Shown here one piece after another: positions 4,289 through 59,524 of a stretch of 64,000 nucleotides of DNA. The notes beneath the pieces were generated by a model, which saw only the letters and a list, made by a program, of their open reading frames with translations, made no database searches and was not told the DNA's origin. Source of the stretch: an uncultured Desulfatiglans sp. (GTDB lineage: Bacteria; Desulfobacterota; DSM-4660; Desulfatiglandales; Desulfatiglandaceae); assembly GCA_900498135.1 (NCBI GenBank), contig LR026961.1, forward strand, positions 1,082,386-1,146,385, read 5' to 3'. Numbering within the stretch: the first letter of the stretch is position 1; each line of letters begins with the position of its first letter. A program made the translations under genes and the position numbers.

Positions 4289-4565
4289 TGTCTCCATCCG
4301 GAAAAAAGCATCCTGCGCGACAGCCCCTCCAGTCCGTAAACGAGGGATTTTCTTCACACCCTTCGGGTGCTCAGTCCCCCCCTGCGGGGCGGGTCCCGGT
4401 TTCTTCACACCCTTCGGGTGCTCAGTCCCGCCCATCCGGAGCGGCTCCAGGTCCTGCCCATGTCAGGGGACACCATCGTTTGCCTGGGGAAGACCTGTAG
4501 GTCGCCGCACGGGCAAACCGGGCAAACGGGCAAATCGCGGCCGAGATTGGCAGGAGAGACCACCT
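4289..4565 (+). repeat. R1 element, decayed copy carrying R2 insertions
   Basis: Left arm CTCCATCCGGAAAAAAG at 4292 and GTCCGTAAACGAGGGATTTT match the left half of the intact R1 copy at 31253. The right half (GACCTGTAGGTCGCCGCAC, then GCCGAGATTGG) matches its centre and right arm. Between them sit one and a half R2 units (4352-4433) at the same internal point that R2 occupies in the copy at 31626-31950. The region lies upstream of alr, between divergent genes. Confidence 0.7.
4352..4433 (+). repeat. R2 hairpin element, one full and one truncated tandem unit
   Basis: Unit 1 is 4352-4402 and unit 2 begins at 4403 with the same bases (CTTCACACCCTTCGGGTGCT) and stops after about 31 bp. Each unit holds a small stem (CACCC-TTC-GGGTG) followed by a C-rich/G-rich stem (CCCCCCC and GGGCGGG around a CTGCG loop). 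A related 52-bp unit with changed but still pairing stems is at 31689-31740. Confidence 0.75.
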
Positions 4566-4815
4566 CGAGGCTGAGAACAAGCTAACTGATCTTCTTGCAG
4601 AGTTCAAGCGCAATTGCAGCACGCATCCGGTGCAGCCTTGACAGCCTCCGATTCCATCTCTATCATGGTCCGGCATTTGGGTCGGCCCCATCAGGAGCCG
4701 GTTGCCCGATGCCGCAGCTCCAATGCCCGGGGTCCATGGAGCAAGGCCGCACCTGCCCCTTGCAGGCGTGCTGATGAGATCCCGGAACTCCTTGCGGCAG
4801 GCCCTCCCTTGGACG

Positions 4816-4993
4816 GCTGGTTTCCATCCGGAAGATGTTTATCCAACACGGCAGGAATTCCGACCCGGGATGAGGATTTGCCGCCGATACCCATGAAACC
4901 GAGAGCGTGTCCGTGCGGCGGCCTGCAGGCCGCCACACGAACAGGCGTGGAAATCGACGCCGAGAGCGGCAGAATGCTCCCGTTCCGAGTGGG
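4816..4993 (+). repeat. R1 element, decayed full-length copy
   Basis: Starts with GGTTTCCATCCGGAAGATG, contains GGGATGAGGATTTG, a perfect 18-bp palindrome GGCGGCCTGCAGGCCGCC at 4917-4934, then AATCGACGCCGAGAGCGGC and TTCCGAGTGG. Block order and spacing equal the intact R1. The central palindrome differs from the usual GGCGACCTGCAGGTCGCC by one base on each side, keeping a perfect stem. It ends only 16 bp before the DUF2065 start codon. Confidence 0.75.
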
Positions 4994-5008
4994 CACAAGG
5001 TATCCAGG

Positions 5009-20434: not shown

Positions 20435-20451
20435 TTTATCCCTCTGTCTCG

Positions 20452-20625
20452 ATCCTGTCCGGAAATGTTCTTTTCAGCCAATCTTCGCGTCAGCCTGCAC
20501 GCCTGCCCGGGTAGCGACCACCCGGTCGCCTCCGCGCAAACGCTTGATTCCCTTCAGATCGGCCAAAAACCCTCTGCTCCGGATTGGAAACTCGTTCGTA
20601 CCGGCGAATCATTTCGGGATACAAC
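20452..20625 (-). repeat. R1 element, decayed copy between rplU and rpmA
   Basis: On the plus strand TGTCCGGAAATG, CAGCCAATCTTCGCGTCA, a stem GCGACC-ACCC-GGTCGC (20514-20529), CCTCCGCGCAAACGCTTGAT, GATCGGCCAAAAACC and CTCCGGATTGGAAACTCG follow the R1 block order of the copy at 23783. The central palindrome has a different loop but both six-base arms are kept. It is inside the predicted rplU-rpmA transcript, starting 18 bp upstream of the rpmA ATG. Confidence 0.75.
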
Positions 20626-20651
20626 CCACCTCGAAAAAATCACCGCCCCAA

Positions 20652-23782: not shown

Positions 23783-23993
23783 GAATTAGTTTCCATCCGG
23801 AAATGGTCTTTTTGGCCAATCTCGGCGTCAATCTGCACGTTTGCTTGTGCGGCGACCTGCAGGTCGCCTCCGCGCAAATGCTTGATTTCCTTGATATTGG
23901 CCGAAAATCCTCATTTCCGGATTGGAAACTTAGTCCTACCGCGAAATTATTTCCGGATGCACACGAATTAGTTTCCATCCGGAAATGGTCTTT
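23783..23993 (-). repeat. R1 element, well-preserved copy plus partial tandem
   Basis: On the minus strand this is almost base for base the copy at 31253-31440. The central palindrome GGCGACCTGCAGGTCGCC is at 23851-23868. The 29 bases at 23783-23811 recur as a direct repeat at 23965-23993, so a second copy begins with 182-bp periodicity but breaks off. The array ends about 58 bp before the MarR-type gene. Confidence 0.9.
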
Positions 23994-31252: not shown

Positions 31253-31440
31253 GAATTCGTGTCCATCCGGAAATGATTTCGCGGTAGGACTAACTTTCCA
31301 ATCCGGAAATGAGGATTTTTGGCCAATATCAGGGAAATCAAGCGTCTGCGCGGAGGCGACCTGCAGGTCGCCGCACAAGCAAACGTGCAGATTGACGCCG
31401 AGATTGGCCAAAAAGACCATTTCCGGATGGAAACGAATTC
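31253..31440 (+). repeat. R1 element, complete type copy
   Basis: 188 bp. The left 24 bp (31253-31276) and the reverse complement of the right 24 bp (31417-31440) agree at 22 positions; both begin GAATTCGT and contain TCCATCCGGAAATG. Inside are a second CCGGAAATG block, the inverted pair TTTTTGGCCAAT / ATTGGCCAAAAA (31316-31415) and an 18-bp perfect palindrome GGCGACCTGCAGGTCGCC (31355-31372). The region from 31299 to 31430 can fold as one long imperfect hairpin. No coding capacity is credible. Confidence 0.9.
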
Positions 31441-31625: not shown

Positions 31626-31950
31626 GCGTCCATCCGGAAATATGGCTTTCAAAACGAAATAGTTTCCAATCCGGAAATGAGGATTTTTCTTCACACGCTG
31701 CGCGTGCTCAGTCCCACCCTTGCGGGGTGGGTCTCGGTTTGGCCAATATCAATGAAATCAAGCGTTTGAGCTGAGGTGACCTGCAGGTCGCCGCACAAGC
31801 AAACGTGCAGATTGACGCCGAGATTGGCCAAAAAGACCATTTCCGGATGGAAATCAAGCGTTTGCGCGGAGGCGACCTGCAGGTCGCCGCACAAGCAAAC
31901 GTGCAGATTGACGCCGAGATTGGCCAAAAAGACCATTTCCGGATGGAAAC
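31626..31950 (+). repeat. R1 composite: R2 insertion and tandem core duplication
   Basis: R1 left arm at 31626-31688, an R2 unit at 31689-31740, then two tandem copies of the R1 core with 96-bp period (centres at 31775-31792 and 31871-31888), ending GGATGGAAAC at 31950. The first centre reads GGTGACCTGCAGGTCGCC, one base off perfect symmetry; the second is perfect. Confidence 0.9.
31689..31740 (+). repeat. R2 hairpin element inside R1
   Basis: 52 bp. Stem 1 is CACGC-TGC-GCGTG (CACCC-TTC-GGGTG at 4352); stem 2 is CCCACCC-TTGCG-GGGTGGG (C-rich/GGGCGGG at 4352). Both stems changed on both arms. Flanked by GAGGATTTTT and GGCCAATATC, the two halves of an R1 arm that are contiguous in the copy at 31253. 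Confidence 0.8.
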
Positions 31951-54379: not shown

Positions 54380-57364
54380 TTATCCCCTTTCCTCCCCCGG
54401 CACCGGGAACAGAACCCTGAAAGTGCTTCCCCGGCCCTCCTCGCTCCGTATTCGGACGCGGCCCCCATAGGCCTTGACTATGCCATAGACGATGGAAAGC
54501 CCCAGCCCCAATCCCTCGCCGCCCTTTTTCGTTGTGTAGAAAGGTTCGAAGACTCTGCCCAGGCTTTCCTCCGAAATACCCGGGCCGGTGTCCGATATCT
54601 CCAACCCCACCGCCCGCTTGCCCGCCCTGAAGGTGCGCACACCGATATGGTCTTCCGCCGTCTCGCCTCCGGCCCTCCGTTTGCGCAGAATCGCTTCCCT
54701 GGCGTTGTTCAGAAGATTGAAGACGACCTGCCCGATCCGGTTCACGTTGGCGAAAACAGGGGGCAGATCCGGCTCGAACTTCAGCTCGAGCCGGATGTTT
54801 TCGAGCGCCAGCTGATGCCCGAGGATCGCCAGCACTTCTTGAGCGGCGGCATTCAGGTCCACCTCCTCGCAGTCGACATCCGCCTTCTGGTCGAACCTGC
54901 ATAGGCGCTTGATCGTGCCGCTTGCCCGGTCGACCTGTTCGTCGATCTCCTGAACAATCTGCCTGAGCTGCTCCCGGGAAATCTCCTCCCCGCGATCGAG
55001 TGTCATTTTGAGATATTCGCTGCCCATCTTGATGGCATTCAACGGCTGGTTCAATTCGTGAGCCACTCCGCCCGCCACTCCCCCTAGCGGCCGCATCAGC
55101 TTCAATAAATCCCACACCGTCACCAGATCGACATGCAGCATCAAGGATGGCAGCAAAACGAGATCCCCCACCAGGGCCGCGAGCAGGGTGACGGCCATCA
55201 TCAGGCCGAAGACGGCCGTCGGTTCGAAATGGGAAAACAGCAGGACCGCAAAGCCCGAGCCGATCGTGAGTGTGGTATAAACCATCGGACGGCCGACACG
55301 CAAGAGGGTATCGGTCAAGGCGCGCTGCTTGTTCAGATCCTTTTTGAGCTCCCGGCTGAACCCGACGAGGTAATGAATGGTGTCATCCACCGCCAGTCCG
55401 ATGGCTATCCCGGCTATCAGGCTCGTCACCATGGACAGCTTGATCCCCAGCCATCCCATTAGACCGAAATTCACGATGATCGGGAAAAAATTGGCCAGAA
55501 TCGCGACGACGCCCACCCTGAGCGAAACGAACAACACCAGCATCAAGGCAAACACCGCAGCGACGGTGATCCAGAGGCTGCTCACCTGCCCCCGCGTCAC
55601 CCATTCGCTGCTGGCGGATATGACCATGCCGAAGCCCGTAGCATCGACGCGGGAGGACCCTCCCAGAACCGAATTGCAGTGTGCTTCTATCCTCGATTTC
55701 ATCCGCAGGAACTCCGCAGAACTGGAGAGGCGGGTCAGCAGGAGGATGCCGGTTCTGGAAAAATCCTCGTCCATATACGTGCGCAGCATGTCGGTCCCGA
55801 GGATCGTCTGGTAGCTGTTCACCAGCATCCGGACCTCGAAAGCCTCTTCCGGCAGGGCATAGTCATTCGGATCGAACCGATTGAGGGCATAGCGGACCAG
55901 CTTGAGATAGTCCAGGAAGGACAGGGTCTTGTCGACACCCTCGAGCGTCTGCAGATAGTCCTGGATCTCTTCGACCTTTCTCAAATGGGCCGGGTCTTCG
56001 AAATAGCCCTCCCCCTCTCCCTCCACGACCACATTCACAGGGAAGGAGCCGGTCATATCCCGGTACGCATCATGGAAATGCCTGCTGATTTCGCTTTGTT
56101 CCCTGAAATAGGCGACAGGGTTCGTCTCGACGCGGATGCGCGTCATCCCCCAGAACGCCAGAAGGATCACCACCGCCAGGATGGGGAGGGTCATCCTCTG
56201 ATGGGCGACATCGATCCGGACAATCGCCTCGAGAAATCGGGCAACGCAGGCGTGGGGCCGTGCAATCGACGATAGACGGCTCCGCGGTGCCGGCAAGGCC
56301 GTCAGAAGCGCGGGGAGAAAGGTCAAGATCATGACCAGGAGGCAAACCATTCCCAGGCATGAGAAGAGCGCGAAGGACCGGATCCCCTCGATCCGGTTGA
56401 CGAAAAGCGAACCCAGGCCGATGATGGTGGTGGCCACCACCAGGCCCATCGGCAGCGCACTGCGCGAAAAGGATTGGATCACCGCTATCCTGTTCGAGGC
56501 CGCGTTCTCGAGTTCCTCGAGGTACATGGACCAGACATGCATACAGTAGGCCGTTCCGACGGCAATCAGAAAAACGGGCACGATCATGGTGAGCATGGTC
56601 AGGGGCACCCCCGTCATGCCCATCAGCCCGAACACCCAAATCAGCACCATCAGCACAATGCCGAGAGGGATCAATATCCCCCGAAGGTCTCTGAAAAACA
56701 GAAACAGCAACACCGCGATCACACCGAATGTCAAGGGAGGCAGATGCAGAAAATCCCTTTCCGTAAAACGGGAAAGGGCCTCCGAAACAACCGGCATCCC
56801 AATCTGATACAGATCGATCCCTTGTCGTACCCGCTCTATTTCCTCCTGCACTGCATTCACGACCGCCCGCCGGTCTTTGGAGTCGTCGAGCAGCAGCATG
56901 ACCGAGGTGTTTTTTCGGTCTTCGGAAAGGAGGCTCTTCCAGATCAGTTCGACCGGTTGAAGGATCTGTTCGAACTCCCTCAGGCTCTTGATGCCGAAAA
57001 GCTCCACATCGCGCTTGATGCCGGGCAGACTGATCACCCTGCGAACCCCCTCGATCTCTTCCAGGCGATCCGCCAGTTTTTCGATTGCTTTGAAGGCACC
57101 GGGCTCGAACACCCCTTTCGTCCGGGCCACGACGAGAATCACCTCTTCCGTCCCGAAAATCTTCTTGAATTTCTCATATCGGCGGGTCTCCGGCAGGTCT
57201 TCGACCGCCAGATCATACAGGGAGGACTGGAACCGAAGATGGGGAATCTGCCAGATGAAGAAGAGGGTCAGCATCAGGAGAAAGACGATCGTCCAGCGGG
57301 GATGACCCAGAATCAGCCGGATCCACTGCTGCTTCAATGCGGATTTGTAGTAGGAGGCGATCAT
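54380..57364 (-). CDS. RND/MMPL-family permease fused to a histidine kinase
   Basis: 994 residues from ATG at 57364; an ATG at 57469 would add a low-complexity Arg/Pro tail and is not preferred. Residues 1-750 form a complete RND/MMPL protein: TM1 22-40, periplasmic domain 41-210, helices 211-360, second periplasmic domain 410-590, helices 595-745 with the transporter motif GLAVDDTIHYLVGFSREL at 656-672. Directly after the last helix (LVTVWDLLKLMRPLGG) comes a histidine kinase: H769 in VAHELNQPLNAIKMG, N-box NLLNNAREAI at 883-892, G1 DTGPGI, F-box FYTTKKGGEGLGLGL. Permeases of this type are often lipid or hopanoid transporters; kinase fusions are uncommon. Probably senses its transported or bound lipid and signals to the neighbouring response regulator. 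Confidence 0.9.
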   Translation of the reverse strand: MIASYYKSALKQQWIRLILGHPRWTIVFLLMLTLFFIWQIPHLRFQSSLYDLAVEDLPETRRYEKFKKIFGTEEVILVVARTKGVFEPGAFKAIEKLADRLEEIEGVRRVISLPGIKRDVELFGIKSLREFEQILQPVELIWKSLLSEDRKNTSVMLLLDDSKDRRAVVNAVQEEIERVRQGIDLYQIGMPVVSEALSRFTERDFLHLPPLTFGVIAVLLFLFFRDLRGILIPLGIVLMVLIWVFGLMGMTGVPLTMLTMIVPVFLIAVGTAYCMHVWSMYLEELENAASNRIAVIQSFSRSALPMGLVVATTIIGLGSLFVNRIEGIRSFALFSCLGMVCLLVMILTFLPALLTALPAPRSRLSSIARPHACVARFLEAIVRIDVAHQRMTLPILAVVILLAFWGMTRIRVETNPVAYFREQSEISRHFHDAYRDMTGSFPVNVVVEGEGEGYFEDPAHLRKVEEIQDYLQTLEGVDKTLSFLDYLKLVRYALNRFDPNDYALPEEAFEVRMLVNSYQTILGTDMLRTYMDEDFSRTGILLLTRLSSSAEFLRMKSRIEAHCNSVLGGSSRVDATGFGMVISASSEWVTRGQVSSLWITVAAVFALMLVLFVSLRVGVVAILANFFPIIVNFGLMGWLGIKLSMVTSLIAGIAIGLAVDDTIHYLVGFSRELKKDLNKQRALTDTLLRVGRPMVYTTLTIGSGFAVLLFSHFEPTAVFGLMMAVTLLAALVGDLVLLPSLMLHVDLVTVWDLLKLMRPLGGVAGGVAHELNQPLNAIKMGSEYLKMTLDRGEEISREQLRQIVQEIDEQVDRASGTIKRLCRFDQKADVDCEEVDLNAAAQEVLAILGHQLALENIRLELKFEPDLPPVFANVNRIGQVVFNLLNNAREAILRKRRAGGETAEDHIGVRTFRAGKRAVGLEISDTGPGISEESLGRVFEPFYTTKKGGEGLGLGLSIVYGIVKAYGGRVRIRSEEGRGSTFRVLFPVPGEERG

Positions 57365-57505: not shown

Positions 57506-59524
57506 TCAATCCTTGGCGGGAGGAAATGTCAAGGTAAAGGTCGTTCCGACGCCTTCCTCACTTTCGAAGGAAATCTCCCCGCCGTAGTCCTTGACGATCC
57601 CTTGAGAAATGGAGAGGCCAAGCCCCATCCCCTGGCCCATCCGTTTGGTCGTGAAGAAAGCGTCGAAAATCCGCCGGCGCAGCGCCTCCGGAACGCCGCT
57701 CCCGGTATCGGAAATGCTTACGGCTGCCTGCCCCTGATCCAGAAACGAGCGGACCCGGATCTTCCTCTCACCGGAAAAGCCGGTCGACTCCCGCTTCTGA
57801 TTGATGGCATCCCGTGCATTGGCAATCAGGTTGAAGATGACCTGCTCCAACCGATTGACATGGCCGTAGATCAGCGGAAGGGTTTCCGTCAGATCCAGTT
57901 CCATCTCGATGTTCTGGATGCTCAACTGCCTTTCGATCATTTCGTAGACATTACGGATCGGCAGGTTGATATCGATTGTTTCGCGGGCGAAATCCGCCTT
58001 GCGGCCGAATTCCCGGAGGCGCTTGATGATGCCCGTCGCGCGGTCGACCTGTTCGCTCACCTCCTTCGCAACGCAGTCGAGATCCTGCTTCGGAACGGTT
58101 TCCCCTTTCTCGAGCATCATCTGGAGGAATTCGCTTCCCATCTTGATCGCGTTCAGCGGCTGGTTCAATTCGTGCGCGATGCCGGCGGACATTTCCCCAA
58201 GCGTGCTCATCTTGCTGGCCTGAATGAGCTGCGCATCCTTTTCGAGCATCTCCGTAATATCGGTGACAGCGACAATCATCACGTCCCGATCCTGGACCTT
58301 GGAGGGCACGGCATGAATATTGACAAAAAAGGGATCTCCGTCCTTTCTAAAATGGCAGACCTTCGAATAGGACCGTTTCACACGACCCTCGGCATCGGGC
58401 CGGAAAAGTGCGTCTTCCCGCTGCCCTTCCCTGCGGCAGGCCAGGGCGGCAAACGAGCGTCCGATCAGTTCTTGGCGCCCGTATCCATAGACCTCCTCGG
58501 CGCTGGGGTTGGCGTCCAGTATATCCAGGGTTTCCCGGTCGAGCACGAAGATAGGGTTGGGCCCGCTCGTGAAAAGGGAGCGGTATTTCTCCTCTGATTC
58601 CTGCAGCCGCTCCTGCGATGCCTTGAGCCGGAAGGTCATGTTCATCAGCGAATCGGCCAACTGCTTGACCTCGTCGCGAGCCCGCCGCTTGTAGACGACA
58701 CAGTCATAACACACCTGAAGCTTTTCAGGGAATTTGGAGGTCGCCTTCTCCATGAATTCGGTCCCGTCGACATACCAGCAGGGGACCTCGATATTGTGAT
58801 GGGCCGGACAGCTGTATTCCCGGCATCGAAGTTGCTCCCAGCACCGCGGACGGCTTCCCAGGTGCGACTTGACATCGAGATTCCCCCGGCTGATTTCGTC
58901 CGCCAGTTGAGTCAACTCCCAGATCGGGCGTGTGATGTACTTGGAGAGCCACCGGCTGACCAGGAAAAAAATCACCACGATAGAAGAGAGAATCCCGAGA
59001 TAGGTCATCCGCAGATTGGCGATGACACCGTCTATGTAATGTTTGTCGAGACCCACATGAACTGCACCGATCTCGTAGATGCCCTCGAGGATCGGGACCC
59101 CGATGTCATAGGCGCTCATGCCCTCCAGATTCAGGAGGCGGATGGTGTAATTCTCGCCGGCCTTCACGACATTCGCGCCGGCAAGACCGTCCGGAAAGGG
59201 ACGGATGAAATTGTGGGCGATGACGTTATGCCCATCATCGAGGATGAAGATATAGGCGATCAGCTGCTTGCGCTCTTCAAGCCTTGCCGCATCGAAAAGA
59301 AGGCTGATGAGGTTGGGATAATCTTCCGTCAGGATATAGCTCCGGCCCGTATCGGCGACGGCCCTCGCAATAGCGATGCCTCTCTGCCGGAGTTCTTCGG
59401 TCATGCTCGATACCAGGACCGTCCGCGTCACCAGGGCGCTGCCAAAACTCATCATCAAGATGATGGCAAGGATCGAATAGAGGATCTTGTTCTTGAGGCT
59501 GATATTTTCGAATCGCTCCATCAT
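57506..59524 (-). CDS. membrane histidine kinase with HAMP, two-CW and PAS domains
   Basis: 672 residues from ATG at 59524, overlapping the stop of the binding-protein gene by ATGA. TM1 about 17-38, periplasmic sensor 40-172, TM2 173-194, HAMP 195-220, then a six-cysteine region: C228 and C249 each before W, with C234, C239, C272 and C275 (two-CW pattern). PAS about 308-425, HisKA with H451 in AGIAHELNQPLNAIKMGSE, N-box NLIANARDAI, G-box DTGSGVP and MGLGLS. The cysteine cluster could hold a metal or respond to redox. The kinase core is nearly identical around H451 to that of the RND-kinase next door. Confidence 0.92.
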   Translation of the reverse strand: MMERFENISLKNKILYSILAIILMMSFGSALVTRTVLVSSMTEELRQRGIAIARAVADTGRSYILTEDYPNLISLLFDAARLEERKQLIAYIFILDDGHNVIAHNFIRPFPDGLAGANVVKAGENYTIRLLNLEGMSAYDIGVPILEGIYEIGAVHVGLDKHYIDGVIANLRMTYLGILSSIVVIFFLVSRWLSKYITRPIWELTQLADEISRGNLDVKSHLGSRPRCWEQLRCREYSCPAHHNIEVPCWYVDGTEFMEKATSKFPEKLQVCYDCVVYKRRARDEVKQLADSLMNMTFRLKASQERLQESEEKYRSLFTSGPNPIFVLDRETLDILDANPSAEEVYGYGRQELIGRSFAALACRREGQREDALFRPDAEGRVKRSYSKVCHFRKDGDPFFVNIHAVPSKVQDRDVMIVAVTDITEMLEKDAQLIQASKMSTLGEMSAGIAHELNQPLNAIKMGSEFLQMMLEKGETVPKQDLDCVAKEVSEQVDRATGIIKRLREFGRKADFARETIDINLPIRNVYEMIERQLSIQNIEMELDLTETLPLIYGHVNRLEQVIFNLIANARDAINQKRESTGFSGERKIRVRSFLDQGQAAVSISDTGSGVPEALRRRIFDAFFTTKRMGQGMGLGLSISQGIVKDYGGEISFESEEGVGTTFTLTFPPAKD

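Follow-up and report, generated by a model that had tools for sequence, protein, structure and literature searches.

Anatomy of R1 and its copies in the window

The type copy of R1 occupies positions 31259–31434 of the window, the whole 64-kb stretch of DNA from an uncultured Desulfatiglans sp. that was analyzed here, and is 176 bp long, counting the terminal G and C. The hexanucleotide GAATTC flanks the element on both sides, at 31253–31258 and, identically, at 31435–31440, as a target-site duplication (TSD). On the plus strand, the layout of R1 is asymmetric: an outer-left segment of 36 nt (31259–31294), which harbors the left terminal inverted repeat (TIR) GTGTCCATCCGGAAATG and the remnant of a first hairpin (hairpin I), is followed by a 140-nt long palindrome, the core or hairpin II (31295–31434), which ends in the right TIR (...CATTTCCGGATGGAAAC), exhibits covariation, and scores 150.9 bits in a covariance-model search. 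The spacing of the outer-left segment to the core is fixed at ~36 nt in this and other genera, and hairpin I takes the form GTGYCC...GGRCAC in other genera. The TIRs span ~17 bp at either end (GTGTCCATCCGGAAATG/GTTTCCATCCGGAAATG), with an end consensus of GTxTCCATCCGGAAATG. A first-pass annotation of the window had described TIRs of 24 bp; ~17 bp of these are the element's own, and the remainder is the 6-bp TSD, which was counted as TIR because GAATTC is itself palindromic. Short, devoid of a transposase gene, and bounded by TIRs at both ends, R1 has the makeup of a MITE, and its fold taken over the whole element has a z of −9.8, with 0 of 200 shuffles as good. A protein-coding interior was considered and rejected: the frame EIKRLRGGDLQVAAQANVQIDAEIG... 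is open in this genus and interrupted by a TAG stop in the loop elsewhere.

Copies in the window were sought with a repeat search and the R1 covariance model, and both confirm R1 as a real repeat family. The model matches 31295–31434(+), 23789–23928(−), 31711–31854(+), 20451–20590(−), and 4858–4996(+), with E values from 1.5e-35 to 4e-4. The copy at 23789–23964(−), found by both methods, is 96% identical to the type copy, is bracketed by the TSD GAATTA (23783–23788 and 23965–23970), and adjoins a piece of a second R1 right end at 23971–23993(−) that was recognized by repeat search and BLAST. Both methods also recover an older copy of ~77% identity (20451–20626, minus strand) and a composite copy (31626–31950, plus strand) made up of a left TIR, a core interrupted by an inserted two-hairpin module, and a right part doubled as a 96-bp tandem repeat. 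The core at 4858–4996(+) is strongly decayed (covariance model, E 4e-4), and the copy at 4289–4582(+), which carries two inserted hairpin modules, is a decayed relative picked up by the repeat search only and not by the covariance model.

The inserted module, ~52 bp in length with two small hairpins, is found at one place of some R1 copies (window 31688–31740 and 4328–4434) and recalls the modular BOX elements of pneumococcus; 27 of the 32 genome-sample matches to its sequence, TGCTCAGTCCC, adjoin R1 ends. At 3536542–3536965, 3015755–3016179, and 3899082–3899369 of the source genome and at 31738–31950 of the window, either the R1 core is repeated in tandem, with a period of ~142 bp, or its right part is, with a period of 96 bp. 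Separately, the stretches at 54867–55097 and 57981–58211 of the window consist of diverged duplicate DNA (74–76% identity) within long minus-strand ORFs and are probably paralogous genes.

Genomic dispersal, target duplications, and a probable partner insertion sequence

The source genome of the window (G000) is a single 4.80-Mb contig, of which the window covers positions 1082386–1146385. BLAST with a 172-bp query recovers at least 41 near-full R1 copies of 94–100% identity (best 40 of 451 candidates scored), a 16-mer R1 end with ≤1 mismatch is found 181 times per orientation genome-wide versus 0 for the reversed control, and the covariance model identifies at least 150 copies over the 4.80 Mb, all matches listed having E<3e-18. 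The family is genome-wide by all three measures and not limited to the window, and its ends and center co-occur at a fixed distance; neither outcome by which the first-pass annotation would have been refuted was seen. Among the 150 matches listed, the strands are represented about equally (76+/74−), and no replication-strand bias is visible (22+/23− in segments where GC skew is positive, 19+/24− where it is negative).

The genomic context of R1 was analyzed with a home-made hexamer gene finder in an 864-kb genome sample, partly picked around known copies and not unbiased in copy density. Consistent with the placement noted in the window, 83 of 88 sampled copies lie between genes, versus 15% of random positions. 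No consistent neighbor genes, and no consistent orientation to genes, were found among the sampled copies, and a terminator or UTR role was rejected for want of any co-direction of R1 with genes. Read-in by genes in sense to R1 is under-represented (25 versus 47 unique sites, p=0.013). R1 abuts the 3′ end of a gene in 11/88 copies, roughly double the 5.6% expected, with its right end facing the gene in 10 of 11 near-3′-end cases; nine of the 11 abutted genes end in TAG, a codon that makes up 25% of stops, and in five of the 11 the stop is an in-frame TAG composed of the "TA" of the TSD and the terminal G of R1 (copies 2189498, 3474743, 3533878, 3607667, and 3632201 of the source genome). Four held-out copies (L228, L229, L230, and L232) likewise form a stop on TSD plus terminal G.

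Exact TSDs lie just outside GTxTCC...GGAxAC in 16 of 57 sampled copies of this genome (shuffled mean 0.4, maximum 3), in 22 of 50 copies of other genera (shuffled 1.2, maximum 4), and in eight of 20 copies of further families (shuffled 0.9, maximum 4), so that only ~30–45% of R1 copies retain them. In this and the other genera, they measure 6 bp (30 copies), 7 bp (seven copies), or 8 bp (one copy) and are TANNTA-like in sequence, such as TAGATA, TATCTA, TAGTTA, and TAAATA. When the flanks of two insertions in the source genome, at 3628564 and 4407208, were joined and compared with the draft of a sister genome of the same genus (G001), both loci proved to be unoccupied in the sister; the empty alleles are contiguous, 96–97% identical, and contain exactly one TSD copy each. 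TSDs far above shuffled expectation, together with these two empty sites, bear out the earlier proposal of a mobile element.

ISDol1-type ISNCY elements generate 6–7 bp repeats, and we therefore searched NCBIfam family NF033593 (ISNCY). The source genome has three matches (L078–L080), scoring 432–445 bits versus a cut-off of 325, one of them with a TGA; the candidate partner transposase, at 438.9 bits, exceeds the same curated cut-off and is a protein of ~455 aa with DUF772 and DDE_Tnp_1 domains (Pfam). The candidate partner insertion sequence (IS), which presumably resembles the ISDol1 type, is ~1.69 kb long with ends GTTTCCATCCGGAAAA.../...TATTTCCGGATGGAAAC, and the terminal sequences of the three IS copies read GTTTCCATCCGGAAAACG... 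and ...CCCTATTTCCGGATGGAAAC. Copy L079 is 1693 bp long with the TSD TAAATA; L078 and L080 are without a clear TSD. There is no transposase within the 64-kb window, as first annotated, and the candidate partner is encoded elsewhere in the genome, where IS copies with a matching terminal repeat provide the transposase gene flanked by R1 ends that the annotation had proposed to look for. An ISNCY element (L078 1255–1293) and an R1 copy (L021 left flank) share the same insertion point and the same repeated flank (...GACAAGAGCCCGTTTCATAACA).

With the ISNCY transposase as alignment query, 28 relatives were retrieved, mostly from Desulfobacterales and Desulfosarcina records, and their IS ends were sought with no information other than an inverted repeat flanked by a duplication. 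Eight have GTxTCCATCC-like ends and perfect 6-bp TSDs; L121 has a 7-bp TSD and the distant L130 has GGGCTA. These relatives measure 1.66–1.70 kb, with TSDs such as TAATTA, TAGTTA, TACTTA, TATCTA, and TAGCTA; the IS of G016, for example, has the TSD TAATTA and the left end GTGTCCATCCAGAAATG. R1 and the ISNCY IS are thus alike in terminal repeat (GTxTCCATCC...), in 6–7 bp TSDs at TANNTA, and in their presence in the same genome and its relatives, whereas the IS, at 1.66–1.70 kb, encodes a ~455-aa transposase and R1 is geneless. Judged by sequence, the ends, TSD length, and target of R1 are those of the ISNCY IS family. The sequence in common is limited to the first ~17–25 bp of the ends; the interiors have no similarity, and that of R1 is not derived from the IS by deletion. 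No intact NF033593 gene was found in the draft of the sister genome, despite its many R1 copies; either the assembly has a gap or the partner has been lost. Because ends and TSDs match, we infer that R1 is a MITE mobilized in trans by an ISNCY-family transposase.

Distribution, covariation, and strand bias of the fold

Within the order, matches to the R1 model occur in 51 of 85 genomes, representing 34 of 47 genera; the class comprises the same 85 genomes, and a class-wide search is the same search. When the phylum was sampled evenly, 15 of 197 genomes had matches at E≤1e-20, among them members of ten families outside the order, with one to seven copies each among the matches listed. In one complete genome (G168), L225 4943–5081 contains an R1 interior with unrelated ends (GCAATCGTYC), a single copy among the matches listed, flanked by an apparent NiFe-hydrogenase large subunit gene and its maturation protease gene; its outer stem differs in sequence and pairs nonetheless. 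Rfam (4227 models) has 0 matches in the window at gathering score and only noise in six relatives, and the literature searched, mostly outside subscription journals, yielded no description of the R1 family or of ISNCY MITEs.

To define the fold, 26 cores from 11 genera and 23 full-length elements were compared. The consensus of the cores contains 48 pairs, 23 of them with two-sided changes. Across the full-length elements, 95.4% of cells are paired (88.8% when shuffled); covariation scores 0.231 versus 0.100 shuffled (0/500), with slid versions at ≤0.064. Hairpin I forms pairs in 75% of cells and, although weak in this genus, stands out clearly in others (GTGCCC...GGGCAC, GTGTCC...GGACAC). The internal loops AAGG/ACGCC and GGAG/CACAAG stay unpaired and are conserved phylum-wide, and in three copies the apical hairpin has been swapped for an unrelated one that is also paired. 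Mapping changes at paired sites by parsimony onto a FastTree topology gives 46 compensatory double changes.

These changes are not symmetric with respect to strand. Between genera, tree events from Watson–Crick to G–U outnumber those to A–C by 66 to 21 (63 to 26 when pairs are predicted from either strand with ≥60% Watson–Crick), and in held-out families there are 69 G–U versus 11 A–C cells. The R1 strand folds better than its complement in 57 of 57 cores (mean −59.8 versus −47.7), a figure that overstates independence owing to common ancestry, the tree-mapped events being the better evidence; the consensus energy is −52.6 on the R1 strand versus −19.6 on the complement, and in held-out families the R1 strand folds better in 19 of 20. 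A DNA palindrome should be strand-symmetric, and R1 is not. Rare changes among copies within the source genome, however, comprise 22 G–U versus 20 A–C, and a tree of its young copies, with few events, gives 15 versus 14. As the G–U excess is found between genera and not in young copies, the strand-specific fold appears, on this sequence evidence, to be conserved in the lineage that propagates, while resident copies drift neutrally. Covariation supports the fold of one strand, as in structured RNAs, and the simplest reading would be that the fold is that of RNA, a transcript of that strand; alternatively, it is possible that single-stranded DNA folds strand-specifically. The "transcribed structured element" that the first-pass annotation had set as an alternative to a mobile element therefore seems to apply in addition to it, in that the interior is a conserved strand-specific fold across the phylum.

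We consider it unlikely that R1 is a MITE only, with a palindrome that is just DNA and whose arms are renewed by template switching (quasi-palindrome correction) without selection on RNA. Long palindromes do undergo such correction, but template switching gives Watson–Crick arms and not a one-strand G–U excess (66 versus 21; 69 versus 11), nor does it fit internal loops that are mismatched and yet conserved phylum-wide or an apical hairpin replaced wholesale in three copies with pairing kept. Compatible with this reading are the absence of G–U bias in resident copies and the lack of co-directional placement with genes, which a selfish DNA insertion would be expected to show. Less probable still is a structured regulatory RNA (an ERIC-like mRNA-stability element, terminator, or leader) that helps host genes, with mobility secondary. 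The inconsistent neighbor genes and orientation (76+/74−), the apparently neutral decay of resident copies, and an anatomy without the U-tract of a terminator argue against such a role, even though it would accommodate the strand-specific fold across the phylum, the scarcity of sense read-in (25 versus 47), by which transcription through R1 may matter, and L225, a lone copy that lacks R1 ends and sits between two apparent hydrogenase genes.

Known systems and a proposed mode of propagation

To our knowledge, no TSD is expected of REPIN/REP–RAYT systems, and the unit of 20–40 nt without target duplication that typifies REP, BIME, and REPIN sequences is not what R1 presents. That R1 is such an element, moved by a RAYT (Y1 HUH transposase) via single-stranded DNA hairpins, is scarcely tenable: R1 is intergenic, palindromic, and of high copy number, and one of its strands folds better, but it has 6–7 bp TSDs with clean empty sites, ends that match a DDE ISNCY element, and a unit of 176 bp instead of 20–40 bp. 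TSDs and ISNCY ends thus uphold the MITE branch of the earlier interpretation and speak against its REP/BIME branch. REPIN/REP–RAYT sequences resemble R1 as intergenic palindromic repeats mobilized in trans and differ in transposase class and in their much shorter units (PMC3116915).

Closer parallels are found among MITEs. MITEAba12, for which mobilization in trans by ISAba12 has been proposed, is like R1 short and non-autonomous, with TIRs that match a co-resident IS, a family-wide spread, and TSDs in ~40% of copies; unlike R1, it measures 111–114 bp, has a 9-bp TSD, and is reported to have weak secondary structure, with no conserved strand-specific fold described (PMC6382973). ERIC/IRU and RUP, the latter assigned to IS630-Spn1 by its ends and likewise proposed to be mobilized in trans, are intergenic palindromic MITEs of ~100–170 bp with stable predicted RNA folds, as is R1, but have TA at termini or target where R1 has 6–7 bp TSDs, and they lack the ISNCY partner and the extra outer-left hairpin (PMC2229807). 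The Coxiella QMITE1 and QMITE2 are also long palindromic MITEs, some of which are transcribed as small RNAs; QMITE1 was reported to be without orthologues in other genomes (PMC5896051), whereas R1 recurs across the phylum with covarying stems. Set against these systems, R1 is new in its probable ISNCY partner, in its spread over the phylum, and in the evidence for a strand-specific structural selection absent in residents.

In all likelihood, then, R1 is an ISNCY-mobilized MITE whose fold has been preserved phylum-wide on one strand. As a non-autonomous cut-and-paste transposon, it would be recognized at its ends by the DDE transposase of the ISNCY IS, encoded elsewhere in the genome, and inserted at TANNTA-like sites with a 6-bp, sometimes 7-bp, duplication. 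Between the ends lie two hairpins of 36 and 140 nt, the latter folding with conserved internal loops; throughout the phylum, compensatory and G–U changes have preserved this fold on one strand. Selection appears to act on the fold in those copies that leave descendants, individual residents losing it neutrally. A folded read-through transcript might then make a copy tolerable to the host or block transcription and translation from crossing its ends, and structured copies could thus survive long enough for mobilization; we put forward this role in host tolerance, or as a barrier across the ends, as our best guess, though a doubtful one. That R1 is a mobile structured RNA whose own folded two-hairpin transcript is needed for propagation is possible, with the odds somewhat against it. 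If so, selection would target the source copies rather than the host, and R1 would be a MITE whose selfish function is encoded in RNA.

Bacterial MITEs are usually viewed as decayed IS ends with incidental palindromes, and an elaborate hairpin kept in distant relatives is not expected of ordinary passenger transposons. In R1, selection on the lineage that replicates can be told apart from selection on residents, which makes it testable whether the folding of bacterial palindromic MITEs, as RNA or as a single strand, serves the element.
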